The notes under the pieces are model-generated. The model did no database searches. It was not told the DNA's origin and saw only the letters and a list, made by a program, of their open reading frames with translations. From contig NZ_CP058529.1 of the NCBI RefSeq assembly GCF_013401515.1, positions 1,054,001 to 1,118,000 of the forward strand: 64,000 nt of DNA. Direction: 5' to 3'. Position numbers and translations under genes: made by a program. The stretch's first letter is position 1; the number at the start of each line of letters is the position of its first letter. Source of the DNA: Halorarum halophilum (lineage in GTDB: Archaea; Halobacteriota; Halobacteria; Halobacteriales; Haloferacaceae). Below are positions 2,695 to 7,108 of this stretch, in pieces.

Positions 2695-3327
2695 TTACAG
2701 CGCGCCGAGGCCCAGGAACACCGCGAGGGCGGCGCTGACGAGGAAACAGACCAGCCAGATCGGGGTGCTCCACTTCCGGACGGTCGCGCCGTCGAGCGGC
2801 CCGAACGGGATCAGGTTGAACGCCGCGAGGAAGAAGTTCACCGCGACCCCGTACGAGCCGACGCGCGAGAGCGTCGGGAGCCCCATCCCCGTGCTGACGA
2901 TCAGCACGGGGAGGAACAGCGCGCCGAGCACGACGTTGACGGCGGGGCCAGCGAGCGCGATGAGGCCGTGTTCGCGGGGCGTGATGCGGCCCCGGTGGTG
3001 GACCGCGCCGGGGGCCGCGAAGAGGAAGCCCGCCATCGCCGACACCACCGCGAGGAAGAGCATCCCGTAGTCCGCGCGGAACGCCGCCTGCTGGCCGAAC
3101 CGAACGGCGACGACCTTGTGCGCGAGTTCGTGGAGCAGGAACCCCACGCCGGCCGTGACCAGGCTCACGACGAACGCCGTCACGAGCGGGCCGACGTTCC
3201 CCGAGGACAGGTCGTCGACGACCGACTGGCCGCCGCCCTCGAAGAACAGCGCGAAGGCGACGCCGAGCGCGAGCCAGGCGAACAGGAGGTCGCGCCCCTC
3301 GGTCGGCGAGAAGGAGAGCCGGCTCAC
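2695..3327 (-). CDS. site-2-protease-like M50 membrane metalloprotease
   Basis: A 210-residue polytopic membrane protein of peptidase family M50. The zinc-binding HELAH motif is at residues 66-70 inside a membrane segment, and a second conserved motif, NLIPFGPLDG, lies in the C-terminal third and supplies the third metal ligand. Hydrophobic segments cover most of the chain, with no PDZ or CBS domain visible, so this is a minimal S2P homologue. The GTG start at 3327 overlaps the TGA of the TraB-family gene (GTGA), so the two should be co-translated. Family members cleave membrane-spanning substrates; the target here is unknown. Confidence 0.85.
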   Translation of the reverse strand: MSRLSFSPTEGRDLLFAWLALGVAFALFFEGGGQSVVDDLSSGNVGPLVTAFVVSLVTAGVGFLLHELAHKVVAVRFGQQAAFRADYGMLFLAVVSAMAGFLFAAPGAVHHRGRITPREHGLIALAGPAVNVVLGALFLPVLIVSTGMGLPTLSRVGSYGVAVNFFLAAFNLIPFGPLDGATVRKWSTPIWLVCFLVSAALAVFLGLGAL

Positions 3328-5051
3328 GCGAGGACCCCCCGGGCGGTCGCCCACAGGATGCGGGCGCTCTCTCGGGCGCCCTCCAGCATGAGCTGCGTGA
3401 CGCTCGCGTCCGAGGCGCCGAAGAACTGCGGCAGCACGTACAGCCCGAACAGGACGGTGGCGACGATGCTCCCGATGTTGGTCGCCGCGACGATCACGAT
3501 GAGCTTGAACAGCGGCACGTCGAGCATGTCGGCCAGGATGTCGCCGACGGGGCGCGTCTCGTCGTCGAGCAGCTCGTTCAGCCGGCCGATGTCCGCGACG
3601 TTCACCGTCAGGTGGCGAAGTTCCATGTAGCCGGTGAACCACCCCGGCGCGAGCGCCGGGTTGATGGAGGTCATCCAGGCAACCAGCCCGCCGACGCCCG
3701 CGGACGTCCAGCGGGCGCCCGCCAGCCTGGCGAGCCCGGCCGCGAAGGCGCCGTTGATGAGGAACCACGCGGCGAACAGCGTCAGGAGCTGTTCGTTCCG
3801 CACGCCAGCCATCGCCAGCAGGAGGAAGAAGCCGAGGAACGCGACGGTGACGCCGTAGCCGATCACCTTCCCCCAGGGGACGCCGCCCGACTTCGCGGTC
3901 CCGGTGAGCGACTCCATCGGGGGGAGGCTCGCCGGATCGGCGAGGTATCGCTCGATGCCCTCGCGGTGGCCGGCGCCGACGACTGCGACGACCGAGAAGC
4001 CGGCCTCGCGGAGGCTCACGAGCTGGTGGGCGATGAAGGCGTCGCGTTCGTCGATGAGCGCCTCCGCGCCGCCGGGGGAGAACTGCCGGAACTCCTCCAT
4101 CATCGCGGTCACGACGTCGGCGTCGGTGAGTTCGGCCGGGTCGAACCCCTCGAGATCGTCGACGTCCGCCTCGCTGGCGAGCCCGATTCCCGTCGCACCC
4201 ATGACCAGCGCGGCGAGCAGCCCGATGCCGACGCCGACGAGCAGCCCCAGTACGAGGCTCCCGACCGCGCCGACGACGAACGGGGAGAGGAACCCGGTGA
4301 CCGTCCCGACGCCGACGCCGGTGAGGAAGACCGCCGACCCGGCGACCGAGCCGACGAGCGCCCCGCCGGCTGTGCCCGAGACCGAACGCAGGTCGGACTC
4401 CGCGGCGAGGGTGCTGACCAGCGCCCCGACGGAGACGCCGACCAGTGCGCCGGTCGTCACCCTGGCGAGGATCGCGTCGGTGATCCCGACCGCGCCGCCG
4501 AAGAGCGCGATCGCCGGGCCGAGCAGGACGCCCGCGATCACCCCGACCGCCACCCCGGCGATGCGCGGGTCGGTGACGCCGAACGCCAGGGCGCCGACCA
4601 TCCGCGCCTTCTCCATGAGGGACATCCGCGCCCAGAACCGCTGGATGGTGGTCTGGATGTCGCGGTCGACCAGCGCCACGTCGAGTCCGAGGTCCTCGGC
4701 GGCCTCGACTGCGGCCAGCATCTCGGCGCCGGGTTCGATGTCGAACCGATCGCCCATCCGCGTCTGCACGTACGACAGCATCCAGTAGGCAAGGAACTGG
4801 AAGACCGTGTTGCCCTGCAGCAGGTCGCCCGGGTCGAGGTCGTCGGGCGTCTCGCCCTTCATCTGCCGGTAGCGACCCTCGTCGAGTTCAACGGCGACGA
4901 CGTCGGGCCGCTCCTCGTCGATGACCGCCTCGACCTCGTCGACCGACTCGGCGGAGACGTGGGCGGTCCCGACGACGCGGACGCTCCCGTCGCCCCGGGC
5001 CCCGGAGGGCTGGGGCGGTCCGGGAACGCCGTCGTCGGAGTCGTCGTTCAT
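3324..5051 (-). CDS. TraB/PrgY-family membrane protein
   Basis: A 575-residue protein with an N-terminal TraB domain. VGTAHVS near residue 27 and DVVAVELDEGRY near residue 49 are the family's conserved motifs, and a GAGH motif occurs later (about residue 357). After the first ~150 residues comes a long glycine/alanine-rich hydrophobic stretch of about 130 residues, then more domain sequence, then a C-terminal block of membrane helices (about 390-575). The family is named for the enterococcal pheromone-shutdown protein; its biochemical activity in archaea is not established, although a TIKI-like metalloprotease fold has been suggested for relatives. It is the first gene of a two-gene unit with the M50 peptidase. 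Confidence 0.85.
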   Translation of the reverse strand: MNDDSDDGVPGPPQPSGARGDGSVRVVGTAHVSAESVDEVEAVIDEERPDVVAVELDEGRYRQMKGETPDDLDPGDLLQGNTVFQFLAYWMLSYVQTRMGDRFDIEPGAEMLAAVEAAEDLGLDVALVDRDIQTTIQRFWARMSLMEKARMVGALAFGVTDPRIAGVAVGVIAGVLLGPAIALFGGAVGITDAILARVTTGALVGVSVGALVSTLAAESDLRSVSGTAGGALVGSVAGSAVFLTGVGVGTVTGFLSPFVVGAVGSLVLGLLVGVGIGLLAALVMGATGIGLASEADVDDLEGFDPAELTDADVVTAMMEEFRQFSPGGAEALIDERDAFIAHQLVSLREAGFSVVAVVGAGHREGIERYLADPASLPPMESLTGTAKSGGVPWGKVIGYGVTVAFLGFFLLLAMAGVRNEQLLTLFAAWFLINGAFAAGLARLAGARWTSAGVGGLVAWMTSINPALAPGWFTGYMELRHLTVNVADIGRLNELLDDETRPVGDILADMLDVPLFKLIVIVAATNIGSIVATVLFGLYVLPQFFGASDASVTQLMLEGARESARILWATARGVLA

Positions 5052-5174
5052 CGGCCGCGTGTTTCCCCCGACCCCGTTTACGTGTGTCGGAGTGGTTCGT
5101 TCGGGTGTTCTCGTGGGGCGGTGTAGCGTGCCTCTGATGTCGTAGGGACGGTACCGCCGGCGAGGTTCCCGCCC

Positions 5175-5300
5175 CGAAAGCCCCCGGGCGCTCGCTGGCC
5201 GGGCCTCGCTGCGCTCCTCGCCTCACTCGTTTCACTCGTTCGGCTGCGGTGCTTGCTTCGTCCGGGCTCAGCGAGCGCCCGGCCCCTTTCAGTCCCACCC
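5175..5300 (+). repeat. copy 1 of an inverted ~126-bp intergenic repeat
   Basis: The element starts CGAAAGCCCCC and ends in the 20-mer at 5281-5300, ggcccctttcagtcccaccc. Its exact reverse complement occurs at 5481-5500. Inside the copy, a 14-bp inverted repeat (5184-5197 with 5269-5282, ccgggcgctcgctg / cagcgagcgcccgg) could close a long stem. No reading frame here looks like protein. It is followed by a small hairpin at 5301-5313 (gctgg-ttt-ccagc). Confidence 0.75.
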
Positions 5301-5326
5301 GCTGGTTTCCAGCCGAGCGCAGCGAC

Positions 5327-5358
5327 CCGACTACCCAGTGAACGCCGTCGGTAGTCGG
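5327..5358. repeat. perfect 9-bp inverted repeat in the spacer between the two long repeats
   Basis: The sequence ccgactacc at 5327-5335 is the exact reverse complement of ggtagtcgg at 5350-5358, with a 14-base loop. It lies in the 180-bp spacer between the two copies of the ~126-bp repeat. It could form a hairpin in DNA or RNA; no function can be read from sequence alone. Confidence 0.5.
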
Positions 5359-5480
5359 TGGGGCGACGGCCGAGGGATGACCCGTGTGCGCTCGCCGAGG
5401 GAGGAGACCTCGCCACTCCGCCGACTTCCCGGCGCGTTCACGGTCGGCAGTCCGGGACGACGCTGGCCCGTCCGTGCCTC

Positions 5481-5608
5481 GGGTGGGACTGAAAGGGGCC
5501 GCGGCTATCGGGGAAGGCGGGCGACGCTAGGACCGCAAGGAGTGAGGAGTAGCCGAGCGACTGAGGACCGCAGCGATTCCCCCGAGCCGAGAGCCGTGGG
5601 GGCTTTCG
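5481..5608 (-). repeat. copy 2 of the ~126-bp intergenic repeat, opposite orientation
   Basis: It begins with gggtgggactgaaaggggcc (5481-5500), the exact reverse complement of the end of copy 1, and ends with gggggctttcg (5598-5608), the reverse complement of the start of copy 1. The interior is a diverged match to the reverse complement of copy 1: both contain an accgca block, a gagtgag block and a cgcagcga block in the same order. It therefore looks like a duplicated unit with conserved ends and a variable middle. It ends about 115 bp before the glycerate kinase start. I see no coding content in 5052-5722. Confidence 0.75.
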
Positions 5609-5722
5609 AGGTCGCCGCCACGCTGCTTCCCTCGGGAGATCCCACATATACTATGGCGGCCGAGAACTCCGCAGGATGGTCGGTTCGCTTAACCCGAAGG
5701 GACACGCAGGTAGCGGAAATCG

Positions 5723-7108
5723 ATGATCCAGAACCGCGACGCGTACGCGACGACGCCGGCCCGGGAGACGGCCCTCGCCTGCGTCGAGGCCGGAATCCGC
5801 GCGGCGATGCCCGACCGGGCGGTCGAGCGCGCCCTCTCGCTGTCGGGCGACACGCTCCACGTCGCCGACGCGACCTACGACCTCTCCTCGTTCGACCGGG
5901 TCCTCGTGGTCGGCGGCGGCAAGGCGTCGGCACGGCTCACCGGGGCGCTCGTCGACCTGCTCGGCGACAGAATCGACGACGGCGTGGTGCTCGTGCCCGA
6001 ATCCGACGCCGGCGCGGCCGGCCCCGTCACCCTCGGAGCCGGGGGCCACCCGACGCCGACCGAGGAGGGCGTGGCCGCAACCCGCCGGGCGCTCGACCTC
6101 GTCCGAGACGCCGACGAGCGGACGCTCGTCCTCGCGCCCGTCACCGGCGGCGGGAGCGCGCTGTTCGCCGCGCCGGCGCCGGGCGTGTCGCTCGCGGCCG
6201 TGCAGTCGGTCACGCGGGACCTCCTCGACGCCGGCGCCGCCATCGACGAGGTGAACGCGGTCCGGACGGCCGTCTCGGCGGTGAAGGGCGGCCGACTCGC
6301 GGCCGAGGCGGCGCCGGCGACCGTGGTCGGCCTCCTGCTGAGCGACGTGGTCGGCGACGACCCGGCCGTCGTCGCTAGCGGGCCGACCGTGGCCGCAGAG
6401 TCGACGCCCGGGGAGGCGCGCTGGGTGCTGAACGAGTACGGCGTCGCGGCCGACGAGATCCGCGAGTTCCTCTCCGACGCCGAACCCGGGCCGGTTCCCG
6501 ACGACCTGGCGTTCGACCGCGTCCGCACGGTCGTCCTCGCGGACGCAACGACCGCGCTTGAGGCCGCGCGGGAGACCGCCGTCGAGCGTGGGTACGATTC
6601 TCGAATCGTCTCCCCGGACGTCACCGGCGAGTCGAGCGACCGAGGTCGCGAGGGGTCGGCGCTCGCGCTGGACGTCCTCGCGTGCGGCGACGGTCCCGCC
6701 GTGCTGCTCTCGGGCGGCGAGACGACCGTGACCGTCCGCGGCAACGGGCGCGGCGGGCCGAACTGCGAGTACGCGCTGGCCGGGGCCATCCACCTCGCGG
6801 AGGTCGAAGACGACACGGCCGCCGGCGACCAGGTTCCCGGCGAACGGGTAGCGGTCGCTGCCGTCGACACGGACGGCCTCGACGGGTCCAGCGACGCGGC
6901 AGGCGCCCTCGTGGATGGGACGACCGTGGACGACCCGGACGCGGCCCACGACGCGCTCGCGGACAACGACGCCCTGGGCTACCTCGAGGAGCGCGGCGCG
7001 CTCCGAACCGGCCCGACTGGGACGAACGTGAACGACCTCCGTGCGTGGGTAGTCGAGGGCGACGCGGACGGGGGAACCGGCGACGGATCCCGGACGGGTA
7101 CGCGGTAG
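5723..7108 (+). CDS. glycerate kinase, MOFRL family
   Basis: A 461-residue protein of the DUF4147 plus MOFRL type, which phosphorylates glycerate, usually to 2-phosphoglycerate in archaea, feeding the lower glycolytic pathway. The N-terminal domain contains VVGGGKASARL near residue 63 and VTGGGSALFA near residue 142; the C-terminal MOFRL domain shows LLSGGETTVTV and GRGGPNCEYAL. The length fits the family. It stands alone downstream of the inverted-repeat region, and the next gene starts 30 bp after it. The product position (2- versus 3-phosphoglycerate) is known from family members, not from this sequence. Confidence 0.88.
   Translation: MIQNRDAYATTPARETALACVEAGIRAAMPDRAVERALSLSGDTLHVADATYDLSSFDRVLVVGGGKASARLTGALVDLLGDRIDDGVVLVPESDAGAAGPVTLGAGGHPTPTEEGVAATRRALDLVRDADERTLVLAPVTGGGSALFAAPAPGVSLAAVQSVTRDLLDAGAAIDEVNAVRTAVSAVKGGRLAAEAAPATVVGLLLSDVVGDDPAVVASGPTVAAESTPGEARWVLNEYGVAADEIREFLSDAEPGPVPDDLAFDRVRTVVLADATTALEAARETAVERGYDSRIVSPDVTGESSDRGREGSALALDVLACGDGPAVLLSGGETTVTVRGNGRGGPNCEYALAGAIHLAEVEDDTAAGDQVPGERVAVAAVDTDGLDGSSDAAGALVDGTTVDDPDAAHDALADNDALGYLEERGALRTGPTGTNVNDLRAWVVEGDADGGTGDGSRTGTR

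Follow-up and report, generated by a model that had tools for sequence, protein, structure and literature searches.

The inverted repeat at positions 5172 to 5611 of the window, by which we mean the whole 64,000-nucleotide stretch of the Halorarum halophilum contig NZ_CP058529.1 that was analysed, is a doublet of two non-coding, intergenic hairpin units lying head to head. It belongs to a family of short non-coding palindromes that occurs in many genera of Halobacteria, in up to dozens of copies. The family probably consists of REPIN-like, non-autonomous mobile palindromes, of which the window feature is one doublet. This reading draws on what is observed of the anatomy of the unit, the complementarity of its stems, the strand specificity of its mismatches, its intergenic position, the head-to-head pairing of neighbouring copies, and the presence or absence of copies between species. 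Like a REPIN, each unit is a tagged hairpin, here with a constant foot, and stands either singly or in an inverted doublet. The units would be spread through intergenic space by a trans-acting enzyme that uses the head-sense strand in its folded state, and inserted copies would later lose one unit or collapse to the short form GGGGCCGCGGGGGC.

The doublet in the window and the anatomy of its units

The original prediction placed exact 20-bp reverse complements at 5281 to 5300 and 5481 to 5500. These are real and even longer, the inner arms (5280-5301 and 5480-5501) being perfect reverse complements over 22 bp. The reverse-complementary outer ends were borne out as well (5172-5185 and 5598-5611, 93% match over 14 nt), and so were a 14-bp internal inverted repeat in copy 1, which is the stem of unit H1 in Table 1, and a 9-bp inverted repeat in the spacer (CCGACTACC from 5327 and GGTAGTCGG from 5350). 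The middles of the two copies, which had been taken as collinear, are instead equivalent hairpins, the outer stem of copy 2 being imperfect. The RNA fold of H1 is better than that of shuffled sequences (z = −3.46; z = −1.50 with DNA energies), and that of H2 is no better than shuffles (z = −0.92 for RNA and 0.46 with DNA energies), a point against the reading given above. The doublet lies about 110 to 120 bp from the start codons of both divergent genes and could therefore separate or affect the two promoters.

Table 1. Features of the doublet and its surroundings, in positions of the window
Feature	Position	Strand	Remark
Whole doublet	5172..5611	.	Between two divergent genes; orthologous locus of congener G292 arranged alike
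Unit H1, read right to left	5175..5300	-	Head 5300-5281, tail 5185-5176
H1 stem arms	5267-5280 and 5186-5199	-	14/14 pairs
Unit H2	5481..5608	+	Head 5481-5500, tail 5598-5607
H2 stem arms	5501-5514 and 5584-5597	+	11/14 pairs
Spacer between heads	5301..5480	.	180 bp; G292 spacer identical at 123/179 aligned bases
Upstream hairpin CCGACTACC/GGTAGTCGG	5327..5358	.	26 nt before head H1
Flanking gene, TraB/PrgY/gumN family	3324..5051	-	Start 5051
Flanking gene, DUF4147 + MOFRL	5723..7108	+	Start 5723

Across the family, a unit is composed of a head (GGGTGGGACTGAAAGGGGCC), a stem arm, an interior, a second stem arm and a tail (GGGGGCTTTC), and is mostly 115 to 128 nt long, as measured for the 198 heads, out of 280, that had a stem-bearing tail. 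Two parts are constant, the 5′ tag GGGTGGGACT and the foot, GAAAG-GGG-CC ... GG-GGG-CTTTC. The foot arms, of the main type GAAAG/CTTTC or the second type GGAAG/CTTCC, are complementary in 227 of 238 units (201 and 26 for the two types), and the variants GAACG and GACCG show no covariation, the tail still being CTTTC in the three of three that were found. Inward of the foot pairing come three G.G oppositions, then CC/GG, then a stem that is specific to each copy. With the first exact tail motif taken and pairing ignored, the Watson-Crick fraction at nine stem positions is 0.823, 0.889, and 0.848 in sets of 39, 43, and 73 distinct units, against means of 0.437, 0.630, and 0.485 and maxima of 0.533, 0.698, and 0.537 in 500 shuffles. 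Each stem position shows several Watson-Crick pair types in these sets. The description of the stem as copy-specific and the mismatch and tandem G.A counts given below rest on units selected for stem pairing. The element had been called structured, a view upheld by arm complementarity far above that of shuffles together with the strand-specific folding described below. In minimal copies, GGGGCCGCGGGGGC, the stem is missing.

The interiors are more varied. Of 275 units, 11 carry an interior whose orientation is reversed with respect to the head, and 82 have no marker motif; the inverted cases include L028, L052, L056, and L068 of the window genome and L072 of G292. One orthologous pair differs in orientation, the interior of H1 being inverted in G292. 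Nested small hairpins recur inside the interiors of different copies, like inserts within inserts, those of the CACGGGCGC..GCGCCCGTGAATTC type at 15 loci (e.g., L016, L027, and L032) and those of the CTTTCGTCATNACGA type at 39 (e.g., L031, L044, L050, and L057).

Stem complementarity could in principle come from a mutational process, either template switching or arm-to-arm conversion, and not from selection. Orthologous stems can indeed differ wholly and yet pair perfectly, as in L012 and L377, and the inverted H1 interior of G292 points the same way. We nevertheless regard this explanation as quite improbable, as it leaves the strand bias of the mismatches, the constancy of head and tail and the copy number unexplained.

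Copy number, distribution and arrangement

The 20-mer that forms the head, which the original prediction proposed to look for elsewhere in the genome, has 71 matches at up to three mismatches in the window genome (G000), 30 of them exact, against none for the reversed pattern; the preference for an element over chance is thus sustained. The congeners G026 and G292 hold 117 and 105 copies, respectively (reversed control 0 and 1), with locus-level counts for G026 resting on 30 fetched loci out of its 117 matches. An 18-base core is present in 95 of 292 Halobacteria genomes and 40 of 77 genera, at 0 to 74 copies per genome. A scan of named genomes gave at least 120 stretches, and 79 of the 80 titles among the matches listed are haloarchaea, the one outside named haloarchaea being "uncultured archaeon A07HN63". 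A chance local palindrome has practically no probability left: short palindromes are frequent at high G+C, but nothing was found in its favour, and it is already refuted by the copy count in the window genome and the spread over genera. A phage or viral origin was rejected, as the viral contigs gave no exact match and the phage records no match to the element. Partial matches occur in 47 haloarchaeal plasmid records, none reaching 80% of the query.

Copies are almost entirely intergenic, with 1 of 348 heads inside a gene as called by a simple codon model. Units occur singly or as head-to-head pairs; of 62 cases in which neighbouring heads lie within 520 bp, 59 are head to head, three tail to tail and none direct. 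The spacers between paired heads measure 18 to 27 nt in 29 of 33 pairs from a multi-genus sample, and range from 49 to 296 in G000 and G292, with a cluster at 179 to 193. Doublets with clear ends bear the inverted ends CAGCNNGAAAG/CTTTCNNGCTG, and in 27 of 36 rows, spread over five types, the NN is the same at the two ends. Since ends and heads are both inverted, the two ends can pair with each other and so can the two heads, and the doublet may alternatively fold into a four-way junction.

Upstream of the heads, an inverted repeat of at least 8 bp lies within 100 nt for 16 of the 71 heads in the window genome, against 2 in a control stretch and 0 in shuffled sequence. Twelve of these 16 sit 26 to 31 nt before the head, with stems that differ but are compensated, and compensated versions of the CCGACTACC/GGTAGTCGG hairpin precede other Halobaculum heads at an equal distance. 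No such enrichment was found in the multi-genus sample (5 of 133 against 6). A G-rich class, GGCTGGGGAGGGTGTGG..., takes the place of the upstream hairpin at 24 of 71 heads in the window genome, 55 of 100 in G292, and 17 of 35 in G026, at loci that include L012, L024, L282, and L292. At L306 and L307, a second copy of the right end GGGGCTTTCTGGCTGT.. lies a few tens of bases downstream, resembling tandem right ends.

The orientation of copies relative to genes varies from genome to genome. The head strand matches the sense of tandem genes for 20 of 26 single copies in the window genome (20:6), and this bias is weak in G292 (19:15), in the 30 loci sampled from G026 (10:4) and in other loci (17:14); copies are equally frequent between divergent and convergent genes. 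A role as 3′UTR or terminator was rejected, as the bias in the window genome is weak in the others.

Strand-specific folding, conservation of the core and variation at orthologous loci

Mismatches in the distinct stems, counted in the head sense among the units selected for pairing, are strongly asymmetric. G.T oppositions outnumber A.C by 57 to 20 (p = 2.9e-5, relatedness ignored), and purine-purine oppositions outnumber pyrimidine-pyrimidine by 54 to 19 (p = 5.1e-5, relatedness ignored). The excess of G.T is seen in all six groups, of which the one headed "Haloarcula etc" also includes loci L191 to L230, and that of purine pairs in five, the two kinds being equal in G026. The interiors consist of steps of two bases in which G.A mismatches stand in tandem; of the two-by-two loops, 174 of 232 on the head strand are tandem G.A, and 0 of 126 on the complementary strand. 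Of 169 interiors, 142 give the better fold on the head strand (median −3.9 kcal/mol), as against 63 of 115 control 90-mers (median −1.2). Together these observations indicate that the head-sense strand is the one that folds. The inverted interiors and the units that have no marker motif run counter to this. Tolerance of G.T and G.A suits RNA and single-stranded DNA equally and so does not decide between them; we infer that the strand, once folded, functions as DNA in transposition.

The form that is recognised might be a strand-specific quadruplex-duplex hybrid, in what would be a class-wide archaeal counterpart of REPINs served by another kind of enzyme, a proposal we consider doubtful. Four G tracts would be provided by GGG-N-GGG in the tag and by GGG opposite GGG in the foot, and a quadruplex of three layers would be held between the GAAAG/CTTTC and CC/GG duplexes. 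Haloarchaea maintain a very high internal potassium concentration, which would favour a quadruplex. The base between the first two G tracts varies in 10 of 71, 45 of 100, and 4 of 35 copies, whereas each base of the G tracts varies in only 0 to 6 copies per genome set. Against the proposal, two minimal copies were not folded into a quadruplex by ViennaRNA with its quadruplex option on.

The constant parts of the unit are retained where the surroundings are not. At three sites located by their flanks (the window locus in G292, and L054 and L015 in G026), the four heads and the four tails agree at every one of 120 bases, and the 60-bp flanks next to them at only 45% to 78%. This points to selection acting on the core, or to conversion between copies. 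Stems at orthologous sites differ but mostly remain paired. A total of 15 to 16 of the 61 loci of the window genome are shared with G292, the L034 match being doubtful; in the 15 orthologous pairs without L034, head identity is biased, as both sides were located through the head pattern. The identity of heads and tails and the sharing of loci with G292 weigh against the mobile reading, pointing to residence over a long time and perhaps to a function in the cell.

Such a function is central to another explanation, in which the element is a structured RNA (a leader, a 3′ end or a small RNA) that is preserved by what it does, mobility being old or incidental. Folding confined to one strand with G.T and G.A tolerated, cores unchanged amid diverged flanks, and the agreement with tandem-gene sense in the window genome would all suit an RNA. 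We consider it unlikely, given that the orientation bias is weak in G292, G026 and other loci, that gaps between divergent genes hold copies as often as those between convergent ones, and that the two hairpins of a doublet occupy opposite strands. Rfam likewise offers no family: at the gathering score, Rfam 15 left the element unmatched in eight loci, its only matches being an SRP RNA and a tRNA in another part of L093, and in E-value mode it gave just a sub-threshold mir-7331 match (E = 0.35) for 4900 to 5900 of the window. In the 12-kb L093 stretch around one element of genus g27, the archaeal SRP RNA gene is at 427 to 739 and the tRNA at 1662 to 1736.

Orthologous loci differ widely in what they contain. 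A locus of genus g27, between divergent genes, holds the full element in only 2 of the 30 orthologous loci read; one hairpin is left in L235 and L244, a base lacking the hairpin in L233, L236, L237, and L243, one end in L238 and L241, and a collapsed form in L239, the remainder having no recognisable element. At a second locus, one of the 25 readable cases has the whole element, and L315, L316, and L321 have partial or remnant forms. The L015 site has a full hairpin in the window genome and a minimal copy in G026, as expected of a deletion between the stem arms; in G292, no head is found at up to five mismatches, yet both flanks match. Absence from an orthologous site can mean either loss or that the element was never inserted, and the remnants tell us that loss does happen. 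High and patchy copy number, together with presence or absence at orthologous sites, agrees with the mobility that had been proposed, and the family is apparently mobile. The target duplications that were suggested as a check did not appear: direct repeats of at least four bases flank 7 of 36 elements, where shuffling gives 4.8 on average; the 36 rows contain orthologues and some starts more than once. A miniature element of a DDE insertion sequence was rejected, inverted ends being present and target duplication absent. At the first Haloarcula locus, L234 shows TGAAC once and L231 shows it twice, a difference that could reflect duplication or a deletion between repeats.

The loci that lack a hairpin lend themselves to a nested arrangement, as in the SMR-A elements, in which the hairpin H is an insert of about 120 bp at GGGTGGGACT^TTC of an older, PATE-like short palindrome, and "empty" heads would be targets that never received it. 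There are 48 occurrences of the hairpin-less sequence GGGTGGGACTTTC, spread over 36 of the 292 genomes, with five in G000 and five in G274, against 18 for the reversed control; some of these matches are chance occurrences in coding sequence, and others, such as L268, L269, L282, and L292, are plainly hairpin-less members of the family. Units of 115 to 128 nt without target duplication also fit the description of SMR-A (PMC3119063). Deletion of the hairpin between short repeats yields an identical product, however, and the window genome has no match to TnpA or TnpB, the seat being only a putative IS605/PATE end. A head without a hairpin may be a seat that never received its insert, as in SMR-A, or one that has lost the hairpin by deletion; the nested arrangement as a whole we take to be possible but somewhat unlikely.

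The missing mover and relation to known palindromic repeats

For REPIN-like elements a mover acting in trans would be expected among the Y1 proteins. The IS200/RAYT-type Y1 family (PF01797, TnpA) has no match in G000 or G026, although it is found in 201 of 292 genomes, and in 9 of the 16 genomes that have at least ten copies of the element. TnpB (PF07282) has no match in G000 and one each in G026 and G292, at loci where the element motif does not occur. With no match for IS200-type TnpA or for TnpB, the window genome lacks the enzymes known to move REPINs and PATEs, and an IS605/PATE origin was rejected on this ground. Among 587 neighbouring proteins from up to 179 loci, families span at most five loci, and none was recognised by eye as a transposase. 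The lack of a mover, like that of target duplications, counts against the mobile reading. We infer that a trans-acting nuclease exists.

The closest resemblance is to the REPINs and REP-BIMEs associated with RAYT, as described in the available portions of PMC3116915 and PMC2817692. Both are short, tagged, intergenic palindromes of many copies that are non-autonomous and patchily distributed, with inverted doublets more ordered than singlets, and the family has what defines a REPIN in that inverted doublets of a tagged palindrome lie between genes. The haloarchaeal units are however about 120 nt long with copy-specific stems, whereas REPs are 20 to 40 bp of one sequence; the tag is another one, and a cognate Y1 transposase is wanting in both G000 and G026.

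PATEs, to the extent covered by the accessible text of PMC3119063 and PMC10544981, are likewise haloarchaeal, non-coding, palindromic and free of target duplications, and one is expressed in a haloarchaeal virus-host pair (PMC10544981). They have IS605-type palindromes near their termini and no terminal inverted repeats (PMC3119063, same portions), whereas here whole units are palindromic, Haloarcula doublets have inverted ends, and the window genome is without IS605 genes. The SMR-A elements of Haloquadratum (HqIRS42/43/55) could be compared by description only, from the same parts of PMC3119063. They are about 110 bp long, with inverted ends, no target duplication and an unknown mover, and insert into palindromes of PATEs or IS605 transposons; the present family is alike in unit length, complementary foot arms, and lack of target duplication, and its palindromic seat is a putative IS605/PATE end only. 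Bacterial CGTC-tagged REPs, in the sections available of PMC3733652, are palindromic and tagged as well and are said to have no transposase dedicated to them; they differ in tag, unit size, and hosts. A literature search by strings of the GTGGGACTGAAAG, CCCCTTTCAGTCCCACC, and GAGCGAAGCGAG type, with subscription papers mostly outside its scope, gave no description of the family by sequence.

We regard the family as a variant of the palindromic non-autonomous repeats that is real, widespread, structured and apparently mobile, with a strongly conserved core. It explains many of the conserved stretches that lie between haloarchaeal genes, and it extends a REPIN-like organisation to the archaea, separated from the Y1 transposase that is thought to drive bacterial REPINs. 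With 71 and 117 copies in genomes that give no Y1 match, the question of what moves and maintains such repeats becomes testable. Should the quadruplex reading be true, the archaea would possess a class-wide counterpart of REPINs that is mobilised by a different kind of enzyme.
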